From Lawsonibacter asaccharolyticus (GTDB lineage Bacteria; Bacillota; Clostridia; Oscillospirales; Oscillospiraceae): a DNA stretch of 64,000 nt. Of the stretch, positions 24,680 through 34,632 are shown piece by piece. Location of the stretch: contig BFBT01000001.1 of assembly GCA_003112755.1 (NCBI GenBank), positions 1,426,001 through 1,490,000 of the forward strand, written 5' to 3'. Each line of letters begins with the position of its first letter. Within the stretch, counting starts at the first letter, position 1. The notes under the pieces are model-generated. The model saw only the letters and a program-made list of their open reading frames with translations. It was not told the origin of the DNA and ran no database searches. Both the position numbers and the translations under genes were made by a program.

Positions 24680-25180
24680 GTGTCGGATTTTGACTGTGAT
24701 CCGCTGTTTTCCAGGCTTTGCCTGGAGATGTTGGAGCAAATGACGGCCTACTCCGCGCGCAGGCTGGGCGATATCGGTCTGGCGGAGGACGTGGCGCAGG
24801 ACACATTCGCGGAATGTTGGAAGAACTGGGAGCAGGGACAGCGGGTGAAGCACCATCCAAATCCCAGGGGCTGGCTCTGGGAGGCCCTGAAGATCAAACT
24901 CAAGAAGATGCGGGAGGACATGGAGAAGGTCCGCACGGTGCCGCTGGACGAGCTGGCCCACCCGCCTGCGGCACCTGTGGAGCGGAGGCTGTATCTGAGT
25001 GACTACCTTCCGCCCGACACATCCCGGGCGGACCGGCGGATCGTGCGCCTCCGGCTGGAGGGCTACCGCTATCAGGAGATCGCGGAAAAGATGGGCATGA
25101 CGGAGATCCAGTGCCGGGTGCGCCTGTTTCGTCTGAGGGAGAAGCTGAAAAAATTTGAAGAAACTTTGGGGAACCTGTAA
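24680..25180 (+). CDS. ECF-type RNA polymerase sigma factor (locus 2)
   Basis: 166 residues from GTG 24680, with GAAGGGAGGG upstream. Sigma-2 region: LAEDVAQDTFAECWKNWEQ; sigma-4 region: RLEGYRYQEIAEKMGMTEIQCRVRLFRLREKL, the -35 recognition helix. The next gene, 45 bp downstream, carries one transmembrane helix and a DUF4367 domain and is the likely anti-sigma partner. Target promoters are unknown. Confidence 0.88.
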   Translation: MSDFDCDPLFSRLCLEMLEQMTAYSARRLGDIGLAEDVAQDTFAECWKNWEQGQRVKHHPNPRGWLWEALKIKLKKMREDMEKVRTVPLDELAHPPAAPVERRLYLSDYLPPDTSRADRRIVRLRLEGYRYQEIAEKMGMTEIQCRVRLFRLREKLKKFEETLGNL

Positions 25181-25225
25181 CGAAATGAAGTTTTTTAAGG
25201 ATATAAAAAGTAAGGAGGTGTCGAG

Positions 25226-26134
25226 ATGTCGGAAAAGCGAGTCGCCCCGCCGGACGGGGGGAGTGGGGACTTGGTTTTAATCCAGCGGCATCTGGAAAAT
25301 TTATCTGCCGGCGAGATCCTGAAGGAATTGGACGCGCGGATGGAGGAGATGACGGATCAGAGCTGTGACCCGGAGCTGATCCGCCTCTATCTGGACGTCC
25401 TGGAGGAGAAGGAGCCCCTGGGCCTGGAACTGGACCCGGAGGCATCCCTCCAGCGGTTCCTGGAGGAGCGCGCCGGCGAGGAAAGCAGGTCCACGCCGCC
25501 GGAGGAGCCGGCGGCCCAAGCGGCAGTGTCCCGTCCTGCCGGCCTCCGCCGTTTCCGCCATTTTCCGCGCACACTGATCGCTGCCGCCGTGGTCGCCGTC
25601 CTCTTTGGCCTGGGGAGCATGGCCGGCAGTTCCAGGCTGTGGGAGTCCGTGGTCCATCTGACCCAGGGCACGCTTCAGATCGTCCCCCCCGGGGCCAGCC
25701 AGTCCGGCCAGACCTCTGCCCAGCCGCCCCTGGAGGAGCTGGAGTTCACCTCCCTGCAGGAGGCGCTGGATGCGTATGGCATCACCGAGCCGCTGGCGCC
25801 CAAGTGGCTGCCGGAGGGGTTTGAGTTTGCTAAAGTGACAGTAAATTTTGATGCTGAATTTTTAAGGATTGCAGCAACATATAAAGACAATGAAAAAGAG
25901 GCAAAGATTGTTGTTCGACGTTGCAATTCAGAGGAAGTCCTTGACAAGTTTTCTCTTGAAAAACAAGAAGGACAGCAGGATACAAAATATATTAAAGGTG
26001 GCGTGGTGCATTCGGTTGCACAAAACAATGCGGCCTATACAGCGTCTTGGACCAATGGACTCAATATGGTATCAATTATGGGAGATGTGACGGAGGAGGA
26101 GCTGGAGCGGATGATCGACTCCATCTATACTTAG
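25226..26134 (+). CDS. DUF4367 membrane protein, likely anti-sigma partner
   Basis: 302 residues behind AAGGAGGTGTCGAG. Acidic cytoplasmic N-terminus of about 110 residues, one transmembrane helix (TLIAAAVVAVLFGLGSMAGS, about 118-137), then an external DUF4367 domain (TSLQEALDAYGITEPLAPKWLPEGFEFAKVTV ... MVSIMGDVTEEELERMIDSI). DUF4367 proteins often sit beside ECF sigma factors. Bases 25828-26088 are far more AT-rich than the rest of the same gene, with a sharp boundary on both sides, which suggests a recombined or recently acquired segment encoding most of the external domain. Confidence 0.75.
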   Translation: MSEKRVAPPDGGSGDLVLIQRHLENLSAGEILKELDARMEEMTDQSCDPELIRLYLDVLEEKEPLGLELDPEASLQRFLEERAGEESRSTPPEEPAAQAAVSRPAGLRRFRHFPRTLIAAAVVAVLFGLGSMAGSSRLWESVVHLTQGTLQIVPPGASQSGQTSAQPPLEELEFTSLQEALDAYGITEPLAPKWLPEGFEFAKVTVNFDAEFLRIAATYKDNEKEAKIVVRRCNSEEVLDKFSLEKQEGQQDTKYIKGGVVHSVAQNNAAYTASWTNGLNMVSIMGDVTEEELERMIDSIYT

Positions 26135-27198: not shown

Positions 27199-27256
27199 AG
27201 AGAGCACAGAGCCAATGAAAACCGGCCCGGCCGGCGGACCTTGAAAATTGAAATAG

Positions 27257-27330
27257 ACGGCGCCCCCGCCACAGGCGGGGGCGCCGTTTCAGCTTGTGGA
27301 AAAAGCGGAAAAGCCGCTTCTTCGACAGCC
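27257..27330. repeat. GC hairpin plus dispersed inverted repeat
   Basis: A 14-bp stem ACGGCGCCCCCGCC/GGCGGGGGCGCCGT followed by TTTC serves as terminator for the upstream genes. Directly after it TCAGCTTGTGGAAAAAGC (27289-27306) matches 22422-22439 at 17 of 18 bases, and the right arm (GCCGCTTCTTCGACAGCC) is its imperfect inverted repeat. Confidence 0.6.
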
Positions 27331-27351
27331 CCGTTTTCTTTTGAACGGGGG

Positions 27352-29718
27352 TCAGCCGGTGATGGTGGTCCCCTGGACCCGCTGGTTGAGCATCTCCAGC
27401 AGCAGGGCGTGCTCCACCCGGCCGTCCAGGATGGACACCTCGCCCACCCCGGCGCGGATGGCCTGGATACAGCCCCGCACCTTGGGCACCATGCCCCCGG
27501 CAATGAGCCCGGTGTCGATCAGCTCCTCCGCCCGCTTCACATCCATGTGGGGGACGGCAGTCTTGCTGTTGTGGCTGTCGATAAGCACCCCGGCGGTGTC
27601 GGTGAGGAAGATCAGCTTGTCCGCCCCCAGAGCCGCCGCCACCGCCCGGGCCGCGTCGTCGGCATTGCAGTTGAAGCCGCCGCCGTCCTCCCCCGCGGCG
27701 ATGGGGGAGACCACCGGCAGGAAGTCCCCGTCCAGCAGGGTCTGAAGGATACGGGGCTCCACCCGGGTGATGGACCCCACCCGGCCCAGGGCCGGGTCCT
27801 TCTCCACAGCGGTGAGCAGGCCGCCGTCCTTGCCGGACAGGCCTACGGCAGACACCTCCAGCTGGCTCAGACGGGAGACGATGGCCTTGTTTACCTGGGC
27901 GGAGAGGGCCATTTCCGCCGTCTCCAGCACCGCCTGGTCGGTATAGCGGTAGCCGTTCTCGAAACGGGTGGGCACCTGGAACTTGTCCAGCAGGGCGGTG
28001 ATGTGCTTGCCGCCGCCGTGGACCAGCACCACCCGGACGCCCACCATGCGCAGGGCGGCCACGTCCTGGAGGGTGGTGTCGGTGGCCGCCTCCGCCCCCA
28101 GGGCGGAGCCGCCGTATTTCACCACAACGGTCCGGCCCTCGTCCCGCTTGAGGATGGGCAGAATGGACAGCAGGGAGCGCACCTTCTCCATGCCGTCCAG
28201 GCCATGGCGCACGTCGTACTCCTGAAGAAAGGACTGGACATAGTCCACGTCAGAGGGGGTGTCGATATACTCGGTGCCCCGCTTCTGGCGGGTCTCCGCC
28301 CCTTTGCCGGTGATGAGGAGGACGGAGGGCTCCCGGCAGCCCAGCACCGCCTGGCGGATGGCCTCCCCCCGGTTGGGCTCGATGGAGTAGTCGCAGCCCT
28401 GGGCCTCCACATAGGAGGCGATCTCCCGGCAGATGGAGAGGGTGTCCTCCTCCCCGGAGTCCTCCTCCGTCAGCACCACCAGGTCGGAGCAGCGGCCGGA
28501 GATCTCCCCCAGGTCCCGCCGGCGGTCCAGGGCCTTTTTCCCCGGACAGCCGAACACGGTGACCACCCGGCGGCCGGGGTACTCCGTTTGAACGGAGCGG
28601 AACAGGGTCTCGAAGGACATGCGGTTGTGGGCGTAGTCCACGATGGCCACGATGTGGCTGTCCGCATTGGTGTACACCTCCATGCGGCCGGGGACCCGGG
28701 CCTTCATCAGCCCCACATAGACGGCCCGCTCCGGGATGTTCAGCCCCTCGCACACCGCGATGGCTGCCAGGGCGTTCTCCACGTTGAACAGGCCGGGCAT
28801 GGTCAGCCGGAACTCCCGGGAAAAGCGGCGGGAACGCACCCGGAACAGGATGTCGTTGCCCCGCTTGCGTACCTGGGAGGCATAGATGTCCGCCTCCGGG
28901 TCCTTCTGGGAGAAGGTGATGACCTGGCGGCTGCCCGCCTGGGCGGCGACCAGCACCCGGCCGGCGTGTTCGCAGTCCAGATTGACGCACCCCACCTCCG
29001 CCTGGGCGAAGATCCGCAGCTTGGAGGAGAAGTAGTCCTCAAAGTCGGGGTGCTCGATGGGGGAGATGTGGTCCAGGCCGATGTTCAGGAAGCAGGCGGC
29101 GGCGAAGCGGGTGCACAGGGTGCGGTGGTACTTCAGCGCCTGGCTGGACACCTCCATGGTGAGGTAGGGGATGCCGGCCGCCACCGCGTGGGCAAAGTGC
29201 CGCTGGAGATCCAGGGGCTCCGGCGTGGTGAGGTGGGACTCGAAGCGCTCCGAGCCGTCGTAGGTGTCGATGGAGGAGATGATGCCGCTCTCCGGCCCGC
29301 CCTGCTCCGCCAGATACTCATCCAGGATATACTTCAGATAATAGGCGGTGGAGGACTTGCCCTTGGTGCCGGTGATGCCGATGACCGACAGGAGCCCGGA
29401 GGGATGGCCGTAGTACCGGTCGGCCAGGGGGGCCATCACCTGGCGCATGTCGGACACCAGGATGCAGGGCAGATCCACGGCAGGGTAGGGGGTCTGGCTC
29501 ACATAGGCCACCGCGCCCCGCTGGGCGGCCTGGGACAGATAGGCCTCCTTGAAGTGGGCGCCCTTGCACAGAAAGAGAGTGCCGGGGACCACCTCCTGGC
29601 TGTCGCAGGAGACCAGGGCGACGGACTGGGACAGGTCCAGCCCCTCGGGCAGAGGAGCGGCCAGCTGGGGCTCCAGCAGGGCGCAGTATTCGCCCAGGGT
29701 GTGGGGCGTGAGATCCAT
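27352..29718 (-). CDS. MurE-type Mur ligase fused to an ArgB-type (N-acetylglutamate) kinase
   Basis: 788 residues, start ATG 29718 behind GGAGG. Residues 1 to about 500 are a MurE-like ligase: ATP loop GTKGKS (117-122), MEVSSQAL (188-195), DHISP, the carbamyl-lysine candidate K233, DYAHN (361-365), GKGAE (471-475). The position of the usual substrate motif DNPR is EEDSGEED (418-425). From Met510 to the end is a complete amino-acid kinase of the ArgB type: KYGGSAL, VLVHGGGKH, GLSGKDGGLL, NCNADDAA, LTDTAGVL, GGMVPKV. No stop or strong ribosome site separates the halves. Known MurE adds the third residue to UDP-MurNAc-dipeptide; ArgB phosphorylates N-acetylglutamate. The joint function is unknown. 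Last gene of the 27.3-33 kb operon. Confidence 0.88.
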   Translation of the reverse strand: MDLTPHTLGEYCALLEPQLAAPLPEGLDLSQSVALVSCDSQEVVPGTLFLCKGAHFKEAYLSQAAQRGAVAYVSQTPYPAVDLPCILVSDMRQVMAPLADRYYGHPSGLLSVIGITGTKGKSSTAYYLKYILDEYLAEQGGPESGIISSIDTYDGSERFESHLTTPEPLDLQRHFAHAVAAGIPYLTMEVSSQALKYHRTLCTRFAAACFLNIGLDHISPIEHPDFEDYFSSKLRIFAQAEVGCVNLDCEHAGRVLVAAQAGSRQVITFSQKDPEADIYASQVRKRGNDILFRVRSRRFSREFRLTMPGLFNVENALAAIAVCEGLNIPERAVYVGLMKARVPGRMEVYTNADSHIVAIVDYAHNRMSFETLFRSVQTEYPGRRVVTVFGCPGKKALDRRRDLGEISGRCSDLVVLTEEDSGEEDTLSICREIASYVEAQGCDYSIEPNRGEAIRQAVLGCREPSVLLITGKGAETRQKRGTEYIDTPSDVDYVQSFLQEYDVRHGLDGMEKVRSLLSILPILKRDEGRTVVVKYGGSALGAEAATDTTLQDVAALRMVGVRVVLVHGGGKHITALLDKFQVPTRFENGYRYTDQAVLETAEMALSAQVNKAIVSRLSQLEVSAVGLSGKDGGLLTAVEKDPALGRVGSITRVEPRILQTLLDGDFLPVVSPIAAGEDGGGFNCNADDAARAVAAALGADKLIFLTDTAGVLIDSHNSKTAVPHMDVKRAEELIDTGLIAGGMVPKVRGCIQAIRAGVGEVSILDGRVEHALLLEMLNQRVQGTTITG

Positions 29719-29831
29719 AGAGCAAACCTCCTGGTGTTGTCATGTGTGGATGGGGGCGCCACCCCCATTTTCAATTTGCGGAGTACGTTCCAACGGCGGG
29801 CGTGGGCAGGCACCGCCCCGGAGATGTTTTC

Positions 29832-30578
29832 TTAGATGGTGCGCAGCTGTTTGCCGCAGCGGACGACGGCCAGCTCGGCCAGCACCTCCATGGCGTCCAC
29901 GTAGAAGGGGGGCAGGCTGTGGTAGCTGCGGAAGACGGACAGCTCGGTGCAGCCCAGAATGGCGCAGTCACAGCCCATGGAGGCCAGAGCGCGGTCGATC
30001 TGGGCAAATTTCTCCCGGCTGCCCCGCTCCCCCCGTTTGATCTCCTCGTAGATGATGGACATGACCAGACGCTGGACAGCGGGCTCCGGAGGGGCGGCCT
30101 CCAGGCCGAAGGCGGCGCACTCCTTCTGATACAGGCCGGTGCGGATGGTGCCGTCGGTGGCAAGGATGGCGGGGCGGCGCTTCCCCTGGGCCACCAAGGT
30201 CCGGGCGGTCTCCCGGATCATGTGGAGGATGGGGATGCCGATCTCCTGCTGGATGCGGTCCACGAAGTAGTGGGAGGTGTTGCAGGGGATGGCGATGACG
30301 GTGCAGCCGCACTCCTCCAGCAGGCGGGCGTCGGCCAGCAGGCGCTGGTACATAGGCTCGGTGTTCCCGGTGAGGATGGAGGCGGTCCGGTCCGGGACCC
30401 CGGTGTCAGACAGGATCAGGGCGGGCAGATGCTCCTGGTCGCAGGAGGCCTCTGTCCGGTCCAGCACGTACTGATAGAACACCTGGGTGGCCTGGGGCCC
30501 CATCCCCCCCAGCACGCCCAGCTTGGGCTCCCGGGGCTCTCTGGCGCCCTTGGCGCCGCGGGTCTTGACAGTTGACAT
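29832..30578 (-). CDS. Aspartate/glutamate racemase-family protein
   Basis: 248 residues. Typical start motif LGVLGGMGPQATQVFY, and both active-site cysteines: IPCNTSH (about 99) and ILGCTELSV (about 202). Cofactor-independent racemases of this family interconvert L- and D-aspartate or -glutamate by two-cysteine acid/base catalysis in the cytoplasm. GGAGGG lies 6 nt before the ATG. It is 18 bp after the ATP-grasp gene and 113 bp before the MurE-ArgB gene, so it probably supplies a D-amino acid to these ligases. The exact substrate (Asp versus Glu) is inferred. Confidence 0.85.
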   Translation of the reverse strand: MSTVKTRGAKGAREPREPKLGVLGGMGPQATQVFYQYVLDRTEASCDQEHLPALILSDTGVPDRTASILTGNTEPMYQRLLADARLLEECGCTVIAIPCNTSHYFVDRIQQEIGIPILHMIRETARTLVAQGKRRPAILATDGTIRTGLYQKECAAFGLEAAPPEPAVQRLVMSIIYEEIKRGERGSREKFAQIDRALASMGCDCAILGCTELSVFRSYHSLPPFYVDAMEVLAELAVVRCGKQLRTI

Positions 30579-30596
30579 GGCTTCCCTCCAGTCTGC

Positions 30597-31814
30597 TCAG
30601 TTCTCCGGGACCTTGTTGTGGCGGTCAAAGCGGACCATGTTGCCGATGTGGGTCTTCCATACCCGCCAGATGCGGGCCGGGGTATAGTCCCGGTGGTACT
30701 CCAGGCTGTGGGTGGACGCCCCCGCCCGGATCAGGGCCTTCATCTGGGGGTGATATGCCTTGGGGATGAATTTGAAGGCCACCTTTTTGGGAACCATCCG
30801 CCACAGGGCGTGGTTTTTGGTGATGACGAAGGGCAGCTCCCGGTGTTCGATCCGGTCCTCCACCAGCAGCTTGGCGATGTTGTATCCCGCGCCAGTGACG
30901 TAGTAATTGCTGCGCCCCTGGCGGCAGTTGATCTCGAAGAGCTTGTACTTGCCGTCCCGGCTGTCGTACTTGATGTCAAAGTTGGAGAAGCCGGTGTAAT
31001 GCAGCTCCTCCAGCAGCTGTTTGATCTTCAGGGAAAGGGCCTCGTCGTACTCGGTGATGATGACGGCGTGGTTGCCGATGCCGTGGGGGGAGTGCTCCTC
31101 CAGCAGCACATGGCCCAGGCACATCAGCTTCACCTGGCCGCTGCGGTCGGAGTAGTTGGTCATCACCCGCATGTAGGTGTCGTCTCCGGGGATGAACTCC
31201 TGGATCACCATATGGTCGGGGTAGCCGGAGGCGTACACCAGGTCCAGAGCATGGAGCAGCTCCTCCCAGGTCTGACAGATGAAGACCTTCTTCACCCCCT
31301 CGAATTCGTGCTCCCAGTAGGCCACGCTGTCGGCCGGCTTGGCCACATAGGGGGGGCCGAAGGGCAGGGTGAAGTCGTGGCCCATGGAGCCATCGTAGAT
31401 AAAGGTGGCCGGGTGGTCGATGCCGTGCTGGTCGCACAGCTCGTAGAAGTGCTCCTTGTTGATGAGGCGGTCCAGCAGGGCGCCGTCGATGTAGGGGGCC
31501 ACCACGTTTCGGGGAAACTGGTCCTTCAGGTGGGCGCACAGCTGCACATAGCTGTCCCCGCAGCCCAGGACGATGACGGTCTTGTGGGAGAACTCCAGGG
31601 CCACCTTCTCTACATTGGAGAGGAAGACGGCGGGGTCCTCATTGTCGGGGCAGGTGCGGTAGTCGATGATGGAGCTGAAGGCACAGGGGAAGGTGTGGAA
31701 CTTGCCGAAGGCCACGCTCTTCACCCCATAGGCCTCGTGAAAGGCACGGGCCACACTGTAAACATTGATATCGCCGCCGAAGAGCAGCGGCTGAAAAGAC
31801 ACCGTTCTGGACAT
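30597..31814 (-). CDS. ATP-grasp ligase, D-aspartate-ligase-like
   Basis: 405 residues from the ATG reading MSRTVSFQPLLFGGDINVYSVARAFHE (AAAGGTG upstream). ATP-grasp landmarks: a lysine-containing nucleotide loop (PPYVAKPADSV), VIQEFIPGDDTYMRVMTN, and the metal-ligand block FEINCRQGRSNYYVTGAG. The overall form recalls carboxylate-amine ligases such as the D-aspartate ligase Asl that extends peptidoglycan side chains in Enterococcus. Neighbour racemase strengthens that reading. It would join a D-amino acid (acyl phosphate intermediate) to an amine; acceptor unknown. Confidence 0.75.
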   Translation of the reverse strand: MSRTVSFQPLLFGGDINVYSVARAFHEAYGVKSVAFGKFHTFPCAFSSIIDYRTCPDNEDPAVFLSNVEKVALEFSHKTVIVLGCGDSYVQLCAHLKDQFPRNVVAPYIDGALLDRLINKEHFYELCDQHGIDHPATFIYDGSMGHDFTLPFGPPYVAKPADSVAYWEHEFEGVKKVFICQTWEELLHALDLVYASGYPDHMVIQEFIPGDDTYMRVMTNYSDRSGQVKLMCLGHVLLEEHSPHGIGNHAVIITEYDEALSLKIKQLLEELHYTGFSNFDIKYDSRDGKYKLFEINCRQGRSNYYVTGAGYNIAKLLVEDRIEHRELPFVITKNHALWRMVPKKVAFKFIPKAYHPQMKALIRAGASTHSLEYHRDYTPARIWRVWKTHIGNMVRFDRHNKVPEN

Positions 31815-31848
31815 AGCAAACACCTTTTTCTTGAAATCGCAGGGAGGA

Positions 31849-32913
31849 TCACCGGTACTGGCGGACACAGCCCCGGGCGTACATGGGGTCCAGGTCGAAG
31901 GAGACCACATCTCCGGCGGAGCACTTCAGATCGGTGACATCCACCAGGGTCTCGCTCACGCCCACAGAGCCGATGACCCGGGCCCGCTGGCCGTTCACCC
32001 GGACATAAAGCCGCCTGCCCCGCCGCCAGCGGCCCAGGGTGCCCAGCAGGCCGGCGGGACGGGGCCGCTCCACCCCGAAGCCGTGCTGATAGCCCACAGG
32101 GACCACCGCTACCCGGGTGGGCGCTTTCAAAACGGCGGTCTTTTCCGCACCCACGGTGTGCCCCTTGGGCAGCCAGCGCATCTCGGCGATGCCGGCCTCC
32201 CCGTGGCCCACGGTGGAGAGCCCGTCGTCTTTGGTGCGGCGGCAGCGGCCCAGCAGGACCGAGCCCGCCCGCACCGCGTCCATGCGGGCAAGATCGCAGT
32301 GCATCAGGGCGTAGGACCCCGCGGCGTGGACGGTGCCGGTCTCAAAGCCGGCGGCGTGGATGGCGTCCAGCACCCGCTGGAACTGCTGGAGCTGGTGCTC
32401 CGCCTCCTGGCCGGCTGGGGCGGCGTGGATCTGGGTGTAAATGCCGGACAGGGCCACGTTGGGCAGGGAGCGGTAGGCCAGCAGGATCTTCTCCGGCTCC
32501 CCCACCAGGAAGCCGCCGAAGCCCATGCCGGTGTCCACCTGGATGTGGGCCTCGGCCACGGTGGAGCGGTTCTCCGCCAGGGCGTTGAGGGCCAGGCCCG
32601 TGTCCACGGAGGAGATGGTGCACACCACGTTCAGGTCCACCAGCCGCTCCAGCACCTCCCGGTCGGTGGTGGAGCGGAGCATGAGGATCTCCTCGTCCAC
32701 AAAGCCGGCCTTCCGCAGCGCCTCGGCCTCCTCCGCCTCGCTGACGGCGAAGCGGCCGATGCCCTCGGCCCGGAGCAGCTCGGCCATCTCGGCGATGCCG
32801 GCGCCCCCGGCGTCTCCCGAGAGGACGCCGTAGACGGCGGCCCCTCCGGCACGGCGCTTCACCACCCTGATGTTCTGCTTTACGGCCGCCTTCTCAATGA
32901 CCAGCACCCGCAT
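31849..32913 (-). CDS. Alanine-racemase-like protein lacking catalytic Lys and Tyr
   Basis: 354 residues with the two-domain Alr fold: N-terminal barrel including HIQVDTGMGFGGF and HAAGSYALMHC, and a C-terminal beta domain beginning near VAVVPVGYQHGF. In known Alr the PLP lysine lies in a V-K-x-D/N-A-Y-G-x-G segment; here the aligned segment is VLSGDAGGAG, so Lys becomes Ser32 and Tyr becomes Gly37. The second catalytic Tyr (YGA) aligns with VGA near 255, and the MDQ block reads GVSE. It is therefore unlikely to be a normal racemase. First gene of the four-gene operon. Confidence 0.75.
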   Translation of the reverse strand: MRVLVIEKAAVKQNIRVVKRRAGGAAVYGVLSGDAGGAGIAEMAELLRAEGIGRFAVSEAEEAEALRKAGFVDEEILMLRSTTDREVLERLVDLNVVCTISSVDTGLALNALAENRSTVAEAHIQVDTGMGFGGFLVGEPEKILLAYRSLPNVALSGIYTQIHAAPAGQEAEHQLQQFQRVLDAIHAAGFETGTVHAAGSYALMHCDLARMDAVRAGSVLLGRCRRTKDDGLSTVGHGEAGIAEMRWLPKGHTVGAEKTAVLKAPTRVAVVPVGYQHGFGVERPRPAGLLGTLGRWRRGRRLYVRVNGQRARVIGSVGVSETLVDVTDLKCSAGDVVSFDLDPMYARGCVRQYR

Positions 32914-32987: not shown

Positions 32988-33016
32988 ATTCTATCACCCT
33001 TTTGAGAGAAACGCAA
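32988..33016 (-). promoter_or_regulatory. Promoter of the racemase/ATP-grasp/MurE-ArgB operon
   Basis: On the minus strand: TTGCGT, 17-bp spacer, TAGAAT with TG-A upstream (extended -10). About 75 nt before the Alr-like ATG; a small GGAGGGAGA/TCTCTCTCC hairpin is in the leader. Confidence 0.6.
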
Positions 33017-33115: not shown

Positions 33116-33144
33116 TTGTGCTTTTTCGGGAAAAATGGTATGAT
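33116..33144 (+). promoter_or_regulatory. miaB promoter
   Basis: TTGTGC, 17-bp spacer, TATGAT with TG-G upstream; divergent from the operon promoter at 32988-33016. Confidence 0.6.
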
Positions 33145-33216
33145 TATTCGATCGGTGTCTCCATGCAGCAGGAGGGGCCGGACGACCATCAAATCCCCCT
33201 CAGGAGGTTGCGATCT

Positions 33217-34632
33217 ATGAGACAGCAGACCACCCGAATTTCCCCGGAGGACATCTCCCGCCAGCTCCAGTACTGCCGGGAGGTCGCGGCCCTCAGCGCC
33301 GCCCGGCCCGCCCAGCCCCTGGCCTTTGTGGACACCTACGGCTGCCAGCAGAACGAGGCGGACTCCGAGCGCATCCGGGGCTATCTCCGGGAGATGGGCT
33401 ACAGCTTCACCCAGGACGAGGAGCAGGCCCAGATCATCGTGCTCAATACCTGCGCCATCCGGGAGCACGCAGAGCAGCGGGTGCTGGGCAACCTGGGCGC
33501 CCTGGTCCACGTGAAGCGCCGCCACCCGGAGCAGATCATCTGCGTGTGCGGCTGCATGGCCCAGGAGGCCCATGTGGCGGAGAAGATCAAGCAGTCCTTC
33601 CGCCACGTGGACCTGGTGTTCGGGCCCCACGCCCTCTGGCGCTTTCCCGAGTTCATCCACACCCTGCTCACCCAGCGGGGGCGGGTGTTCCAGGTGGCGG
33701 AGGAGGCGGGCTCCATCTCCGAGGGCATCCCGGTGGTGCGGCAGGACCGGGTAAAGGCCTGGGTGTCCATCATGTACGGGTGCAACAACTTCTGCTCCTA
33801 CTGCATCGTGCCCTATGTGCGGGGCCGGGAGCGCTCCCGCAGGCCGGAGGACATCCTGGCCGAGGTGGAGCAGCTGGCGGCGGAGGGGTACCGGGATATC
33901 ACCCTGCTGGGCCAGAACGTGAACTCCTACGGCAAGGACCTGGAGGAGCCCCTGGACTTCGCAGACCTGCTGGAGCGGGTGAACGCCGTGCCCGGGGACT
34001 TCCTGATCCGCTTTATGACCTCCCACCCCAAGGACGCCACCCAGAAGCTGTTCGAGACCATGGCCCGGTGCGGGAAGGTGGCCCCGGTGCTCCACCTGCC
34101 CTTCCAGGCGGGCAATGACCGGGTGCTCCGGGCCATGAACCGCCACTATGACCGGGCGCAATACCTGGACGAGGTGCGGCGGCTGAAGGAGCTCATCCCG
34201 GACATCGTGCTCACCTCCGACGTGATCGTGGGCTTTCCCGGGGAGACCACGGAGGAGTTTGAGGAGACCCTGTCCCTGCTGGAGCAGGTGCGGTTCGACG
34301 CCCTGTTCACCTTTATCTTCTCCCCCCGGGTGGGGACCCCCGCCGCCCAGATGGACGACCCCATGCCCCACCAGCAGAAGCAGGCCAACTTCCAGCGCCT
34401 GGTGGACCTCCAGAACCAGATCTCCGCGGAGAAGCACGCGGCCTATGTGGGGAAGACCCTGCGCTGCCTGATCGACGGGGACAGCGGGGACGCCCGGTAT
34501 CCCCTGGCCGCCCGCACGCCGGGCAACCGGCTGGTGCGGCTGGACGGCCCGGCGGAGCTGATCGGCCAGTTCCGGCAGGTGCGGATCACCGACGCCAACA
34601 CCTGGTCCCTGTTCGGGGAGCTGGCGGAGTGA
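33217..34632 (+). CDS. miaB: tRNA-2-methylthio-N6-dimethylallyladenosine synthase
   Basis: 471 residues, AGGAGG 9 nt before ATG 33217. N-terminal UPF0004 domain with cysteine motifs (VDTYGCQQNEAD, NTCAIREHAEQR, CVCGCMAQ), radical-SAM cluster CNNFCSYC (MYGCNNFCSYCIVPYVRGRERSR), and C-terminal TRAM domain. MiaB methylthiolates i6A37 of tRNAs using two [4Fe-4S] clusters and SAM. The order miaB-mutS-mutL is common in Clostridia. Confidence 0.94.
   Translation: MRQQTTRISPEDISRQLQYCREVAALSAARPAQPLAFVDTYGCQQNEADSERIRGYLREMGYSFTQDEEQAQIIVLNTCAIREHAEQRVLGNLGALVHVKRRHPEQIICVCGCMAQEAHVAEKIKQSFRHVDLVFGPHALWRFPEFIHTLLTQRGRVFQVAEEAGSISEGIPVVRQDRVKAWVSIMYGCNNFCSYCIVPYVRGRERSRRPEDILAEVEQLAAEGYRDITLLGQNVNSYGKDLEEPLDFADLLERVNAVPGDFLIRFMTSHPKDATQKLFETMARCGKVAPVLHLPFQAGNDRVLRAMNRHYDRAQYLDEVRRLKELIPDIVLTSDVIVGFPGETTEEFEETLSLLEQVRFDALFTFIFSPRVGTPAAQMDDPMPHQQKQANFQRLVDLQNQISAEKHAAYVGKTLRCLIDGDSGDARYPLAARTPGNRLVRLDGPAELIGQFRQVRITDANTWSLFGELAE

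Follow-up and report, generated by a model that had tools for sequence, protein, structure and literature searches.

A MurE-ArgB fusion beside an AslA-like ligase: a probable second peptidoglycan-precursor route in Lawsonibacter asaccharolyticus

Why would a bacterium that keeps an ordinary diaminopimelate-adding MurE carry a second MurE, fused to an ArgB kinase domain and encoded beside an ATP-grasp ligase, an Asp/Glu racemase and an alanine racemase (Alr)-like protein? This question is raised by an operon of Lawsonibacter asaccharolyticus, which is related to the gut genus Flavonifractor, in the 64,000-nucleotide stretch that we analyzed, here called the window (GCA_003112755.1, contig BFBT01000001.1, positions 1,426,001 to 1,490,000). 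All four genes lie on the minus strand and encode the Alr-like protein (31849-32913, 354 aa), a putative AslA-like D-aspartate ligase of the ATP-grasp type (30597-31814, 405 aa from an ATG at 31814), a putative RacD-like aspartate racemase (29832-30578, 248 aa) and the MurE-ArgB fusion (27352-29718, 788 aa). Sequence comparison makes it probable that the operon specifies a second peptidoglycan-precursor route beside the diaminopimelate route, in which L-ornithine or L-lysine would carry a D-aspartate branch. What we observed is homology, synteny and motif changes; the reactions, the choice of substrate and the incorporation of the product into the wall are deduced from these.

Across 98% of its length, the ligase shares 38% identity with ligases of Lactobacillus crispatus and Latilactobacillus curvatus; one of these lactobacillar homologues is encoded between racemase and Asp transaminase genes and another behind asnB. 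Among the 120 matches listed for the L. curvatus ligase, 5 relatives (61-69% identical) are named D-aspartate ligase in some record, and three of the 120 matches listed for the window ligase bear that name. The window ligase is full-length homologous to ligases so named via the lactobacillar ligase, not via AslA of Lactococcus lactis; it also shows the ATP-grasp fold in its predicted structure (pLDDT 95.5) and shares an operon with an aspartate racemase. Its only Pfam match was sub-threshold, and a search of the PDB with the single ligase sequence gave no match; a ligase profile found there, all weakly, carbamoyl-phosphate synthase, VanA, D-Ala-D-Ala ligases, biotin carboxylases, an L-amino-acid ligase and cyanophycin synthase. 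The racemase, which matches Asp_Glu_race, reached 208.7 bits with TIGR00035 (cut-off 93.1), retains both catalytic cysteines as a RacD should, and is 38% identical to the racemase adjoining the L. curvatus ligase; no second match above the cut-off of this aspartate racemase model was found in the window's genome. The initial annotation had read the ligase as of D-aspartate-ligase type, which lactobacillar homology and loci bear out, and had predicted a racemase supplying a D-amino acid and a MurE-type ligase, roles with which the family matches agree. Its proposal of an undescribed pathway went too far: since the ligase has this degree of identity to lactobacillar ligases, one of them beside a homologous racemase, the core is best read as an AslA-RacD-like D-aspartate module, resembling that lactobacillar locus and the Lactococcus aslA-racD operon described in excerpts from PMC4155827.

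The first domain of the fusion (28219-29718) is a MurE: it scored 287.7 bits with TIGR01085 (cut-off 257.3), GTKGK, the carbamylated-Lys position and GKGxE are present, and the N-terminal MurE domain is retained. At the third-residue motif, where a diaminopimelate-adding MurE has the Arg of DNPR, residues 419-422 of the fusion (28453-28464) read EDSG. According to excerpts from PMC3829189, it is this Arg, the last of the DNPR residues, that binds the additional carboxylate of diaminopimelate, the Lys-MurE of Staphylococcus aureus has DNPA and a negatively charged pocket, and an Arg introduced there gave no diaminopimelate activity; the motif is thus a pointer to the substrate and not a proof of it. 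Across three sample sets, the Arg was found in none of the 100 legible motifs (95 distinct) of MurE encoded beside the ligase (of 101 such MurE, 94 motifs were legible in the main scan and six more in another reading). MurE encoded away from the ligase keeps the Arg (DN[PSA]R) in 16/16 order-level genomes, a count that leaves out a further copy in G296, as well as G810 and G618 (MurE unreadable; G and L numbers denote genomes and loci of the comparison), and in all 26 legible cases among 30 family genomes, carriers and non-carriers alike. The MurE of G810 (DNPK) adjoins a distant ATP-grasp protein, 20% identical. The window's genome itself has a separate MurE, 33% identical, that reads DNPR. 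Judged by this motif, the second MurE appears to choose a building block different from that of the ordinary, diaminopimelate-type MurE.

In a tree, the window MurE type groups with the Lys-MurE of Enterococcus faecalis (DDPA) and with the MurE of L. curvatus (DDPG), Collinsella and Vescimonas (support 1.0). The Lys type of the L. curvatus MurE is our assumption, drawn from the wall type of the species and from a review's 'most lactobacilli'. Ligase-adjacent copies reading DNPG or DNPD form a separate clade (0.986), so that a single ligase family is accompanied by MurE of two lineages, each with an altered motif. In 11 loci (L030, L113, L115, L118, L121, L123, L125-L127, L130 and L167) the operon is followed within 0.8 kb, on the same strand, by a DNPR MurE that belongs to a clade of its own; in L132 such a MurE follows on the other strand. 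The DNPR MurE is the only MurE above the cut-off besides the operon copy in G145, which has one of these 11 loci, and in its congener G066, whose DNPR MurE is on another contig.

The ligase, the racemase and the second MurE form the conserved module. Counting neighbours within 4 kb on the same strand, with loci near contig ends kept in the denominators, the 80 named ligase loci (the best 80 of 565 found) had a racemase in 69/80, a MurE in 64/80 and both in 58/80. The corresponding figures were 29/35, 24/35 and 21/35 for the family sample, in which only 26 of the 35 loci have more than 4.5 kb of downstream sequence, and 14/30, 13/30 and 7/30 for order and phylum loci scoring 140 bits or more; the 145 loci in all represent 139 distinct ligases, as six contigs occur both among the named loci and among the unnamed ones. 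Unlinked genes would hardly show such recurrence. The conservation of the genes together, on which the initial annotation had made its four-gene proposal depend, therefore holds for the ligase, racemase and MurE core, and only in part for the Alr-like gene, which is present in only part of the family and without which the module also occurs.

The ligase was found in 36 of 150 family genomes (39 were listed; three with E above 1e-5, G131, G072 and G024 with loci L063-L065, were dropped, and the ligase fragment of G121, L066, was retained). At E 1e-20 it occurred in 46/295 order genomes and 25/398 phylum genomes, 13 of these 25 being distant matches below 135 bits. Named carriers of the ligase include members of Flavonifractor, Pseudoflavonifractor, Lawsonibacter, Intestinimonas, Evtepia and Flintibacter, and the whole module is not in every one of them: at L139, from Intestinimonas, neither a racemase nor a MurE was seen. 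Two cultured bacteria, Flavonifractor sp. An100 (L100) and Evtepia gabavorous (L134), have the module complete. A reverse search from the operon-type MurE gave 15 matches above 640 bits in 291 class genomes; besides the window's genome and G066, the ligase lay within 6.5 kb in nine of 13 and the racemase in six. The ArgB fusion was present in five of these 13, from two other families, with racemase and ligase directly upstream in all five. Seven lower matches, the only ones inspected, had no ligase or racemase.

The second domain of the fusion (27352-28194) is an ArgB acetylglutamate kinase by family, with 235.5 bits in TIGR00761 (cut-off 151.3) and intact catalytic motifs. Relatives repeat the fusion as a single open frame, mostly of about 780-860 aa, and it is thus not a sequencing artefact. 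The fused ArgB domains fall into a single clade (1.0), distinct from the separately encoded ArgB of the family, and this clade is old. A separate ArgB, 40% identical, is encoded in the window's genome at C1:2019579, and one is present in 12 of 13 fusion genomes, missing in G037 (93% complete). The operon MurE and ArgB are therefore extra copies, with separate paralogues in the same genome. The C-terminal G-x-G-T, which we take to be part of the arginine-inhibition site of ArgB, was found in 0/22 fused versus 15/15 separate ArgB, a count that omits four eroded domains and one separate G128 copy that was not recovered; the window domain reads V-Q-G-T and lacks the arginine-inhibited signature. 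Without the glycine that we associate with arginine inhibition, the fused ArgB suggests a feedback-free supply of ornithine. In L027, L098, L109 and L129 the ArgB domain is shortened and its nucleotide-binding motif lost, with MurE intact; G128, which contains L027, carries two ArgB-like genes outside the fusion. The kinase had at first been thought to act on a Mur-like peptide; no checked motif supports this, and those that we read are the motifs of an acetylglutamate kinase.

The Alr-like protein has both Ala_racemase domains, with Pfam scores of 143 bits (N) and 49.2 bits (C), and, as had been proposed, the marks of a pseudoenzyme rather than of an active alanine racemase: the PLP-binding Lys39 is replaced by Ser (codon 32818-32820) and the catalytic Tyr265 by Ala. 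Among 28 Alr-like sequences (26 distinct), Tyr265 is lost in all. Position 39 has T, A or S in 26 of them, and the two records with K come from a single contig; of the 26 distinct sequences, 25 have lost Lys39. The median dN/dS was 0.35 for the Alr-like proteins (27 relatives, 309 pairs) compared to 0.29 for the ligases (43 ligases, 825 pairs), as obtained by a simple method that ignores base-composition bias and from a set to which the window copy does not belong. By this measure the Alr-like protein evolves under constraint despite the lost catalytic residues. The window's genome encodes two other Alr-family proteins above 200 bits. Another of its proteins, 727 aa long and containing a racemase domain (L279:448-2631; G000 C1 near 3383068), passes the VanT-G catalytic-subunit model (515.9, cut-off 460) and fails the full membrane-bound VanT model (596 of 900). 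Three further ligase loci (L200, L225 and L231) are without an Asp/Glu racemase in the stretch fetched, and a nearby Alr-family protein there keeps both catalytic residues; these three cases, one of which may be an ordinary Alr, hint at an exchange of racemase types.

In the route that we favour, the second MurE would add L-ornithine or L-lysine as residue 3 of the precursor peptide. The racemase would make D-aspartate, which the ATP-grasp ligase would activate as beta-aspartyl phosphate and attach to the amine left free on the side chain of residue 3; the result would be an (Orn/Lys)-D-Asp branch of the A4 type. Not subject to arginine feedback, the fused ArgB would carry out the committed step towards ornithine by producing N-acetylglutamyl phosphate, and the Alr-like protein, presumably no longer racemising, would play a structural or regulatory role.

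Several observations weigh against this route. ArgB is missing from many relatives and eroded in L027, L098, L109 and L129, and because the MurE of relatives that lack ArgB is of the same kind, ornithine is not proven as the substrate. The L-lysine equivalog model (NF010628) is not reached by the window MurE (309.2 of 536 bits), and its best model is named for diaminopimelate, likewise below the cut-off (333.1 of 762). Furthermore, the L. curvatus MurE is annotated as a diaminopimelate ligase and passes a model for one, the ligase-adjacent MurE of L310, outside the three main sets, reads EDPR, and a MurE of G296 with no ligase on its contig reads DDPD. Four of the 13 operon-type MurE of the reverse search had neither ligase nor racemase in the stretch fetched. 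The window racemase also passes a cysteate racemase model (196.5, cut-off 190); we did not adopt this identity, as the model does not separate the two, the L. curvatus racemase scoring 185 compared to 196.5. With respect to the wall itself, no analysis of any carrier was found in the open-access literature, the table in the excerpted part of a review lists diaminopimelate for Faecalibacterium and nothing for Oscillibacter (PMC11382707), and the excerpted description of Intestinimonas massiliensis mentions neither diaminopimelate, ornithine nor peptidoglycan (PMC6341035).

A further point against an ornithine or lysine route is that three order-level genomes (G171, G362 and G396) combine ligase and racemase with just one MurE at E 1e-60, and that this MurE belongs to the DN[PS]R type. 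The ligase can thus exist without a second MurE and may also act on diaminopimelate. This would suit an explanation in which the ligase adds D-aspartate to the diaminopimelate amine (A4-gamma-like) as a bridge for the ordinary wall and the second MurE is used otherwise. In the family, too, L057 and L058 (ligase and racemase) and L056 (ligase alone) have no MurE neighbour, and one MurE above the cut-off was found in G005, the genome of L057, and in G071, the genome of L056. However, with L310 as the exception, the neighbouring MurE is without the diaminopimelate Arg in every legible main-set case and in two MurE lineages, and we consider the diaminopimelate bridge unlikely.

That the window's genome keeps a complete ordinary MurE could also mean that the operon makes a soluble peptide or other non-wall product by Mur-like chemistry, such as a signal, a siderophore-like compound or a storage peptide; MurE-like and ATP-grasp domains also make cyanophycin. 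Yet no further peptide-synthesis enzyme was found among the recurring neighbours, some clusters of which were left unannotated, the N-terminal MurE domain is kept and the lactobacillar homologues stand in racemase and asnB contexts, which together make a non-wall product distinctly improbable. Least credible is an incidental linkage of genes with ordinary separate roles in arginine synthesis, as a spare MurE and in D-amino-acid catabolism: ArgB and Alr do come and go among relatives, but ligase, racemase and MurE stay together across families and in the reverse search, and nearly all fusion genomes have a separate ArgB as well.

The open reading frames agree with the annotated arrangement of four co-directional genes with gaps of 34, 18 and 113 bp, a spacing from which we infer a single transcript. 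Because the upstream gene (33118-34632, a radical SAM protein with a TRAM domain) runs the opposite way, the unit begins with the Alr-like gene. The promoter claimed at 32988-33016 was not confirmed: a scan requiring 9 of 12 consensus matches found none, and by eye the site reads TTGCGT-17-TAGAAT, with 8 of 12. Terminator-like stem-loops, by consensus match only, lie 3' of the operon (27221-27332, minus strand), and no Rfam family matched at gathering scores anywhere in the window. About 1.2 kb past the operon end, on the other strand, 24680-26134 (plus) encodes a sigma-70-like factor and then a 302 aa DUF4367-domain protein with one membrane helix by eye, resembling an ECF sigma/anti-sigma pair.

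Recurring upstream neighbours of the ligase are RelA/SpoT and RecJ. Outside the window's lineage (L112, L113, L115 and others) the ligase often lies behind these genes, identified by Pfam, and in the window's lineage the Alr-like gene occupies their place. None of the observations made here supports a horizontal island, as genomes of the family carry the module repeatedly, in many cases following RelA and RecJ; agreement between trees was not compared. Subsets of loci have a MurJ/polysaccharide-flippase-like protein, a nucleoside phosphorylase, an amidohydrolase, MazG, a QueG-like protein or an HTH protein nearby; the flippase-like gene (L099:2185-4041 and relatives) lies upstream on the opposite strand in 16/80 named loci. 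A 460 aa DUF1963-domain protein is encoded between racemase and MurE in L111 (1943-3325), with similar proteins in three other named loci.

The identity of residue 3 determines how the wall is cross-linked, which transpeptidases are used and which host proteins can act on it. NOD1 senses diaminopimelate fragments. Excerpts from a review (PMC11382707) describe PGLYRP-2 as acting on muropeptides with L-Lys or L-Orn. If the ornithine or lysine route exists, the 'diaminopimelate-type' labels of gut Oscillospiraceae hide a second wall chemistry. A bolder version, possible but doubtful, is that these bacteria switch between two wall chemotypes, diaminopimelate and ornithine-D-aspartate, with the fusion coupling feedback-free ornithine to its use and the dead Alr serving as regulatory subunit of the D-amino-acid step; one protein, the MurE-ArgB fusion, would then set the amount of alternative precursor. 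The fusion also offers a direct and simple way to ask whether ornithine is the substrate.

Among known systems, that of L. lactis combines a Lys-D-Asp bridge with an operon containing both aslA and racD (excerpts from PMC4155827). The window ligase and racemase are likewise adjacent and are full-length homologous to the L. curvatus pair; unlike L. curvatus, where MurE lies about 11 kb from the ligase, the window operon has a second MurE, fused to a kinase, in a diaminopimelate-type genome. To our knowledge, three features seen here do not belong to the aslA-racD system: an additional MurE whose third-residue motif is altered, in a genome of diaminopimelate type, the fused kinase and the inactive-looking Alr. 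Racfm and Aslfm of Enterococcus faecium are likewise a racemase and a D-Asp ligase, compared here by role and not by sequence, and we know of no MurE-ArgB fusion or Alr-like gene in that system; no MurE-ArgB fusion was told of in article titles of the open-access literature. The window MurE shares a clade with the L-lysine-adding MurE of E. faecalis (PRK14022 / NF010628; 37.8% identity, DDPA compared to EDSG), but falls below the equivalog cut-off and is fused to ArgB. The ArgB domain resembles acetylglutamate kinase in its catalytic motifs and model score, but differs in its own clade, the missing C-terminal G-x-G-T and the fusion to MurE. PylC, an ATP-grasp enzyme that joins D-ornithine to the lysine side-chain amine, is 14% identical to the window ligase, and since PurK and biotin carboxylase score within 1 of PylC, this likeness is one of fold only. 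What is new, as far as sequence comparison can tell, is that genomes keeping the diaminopimelate enzyme also contain a putative module for a D-aspartate branch, which has a non-diaminopimelate MurE of its own and, in part of the class, a dedicated kinase.

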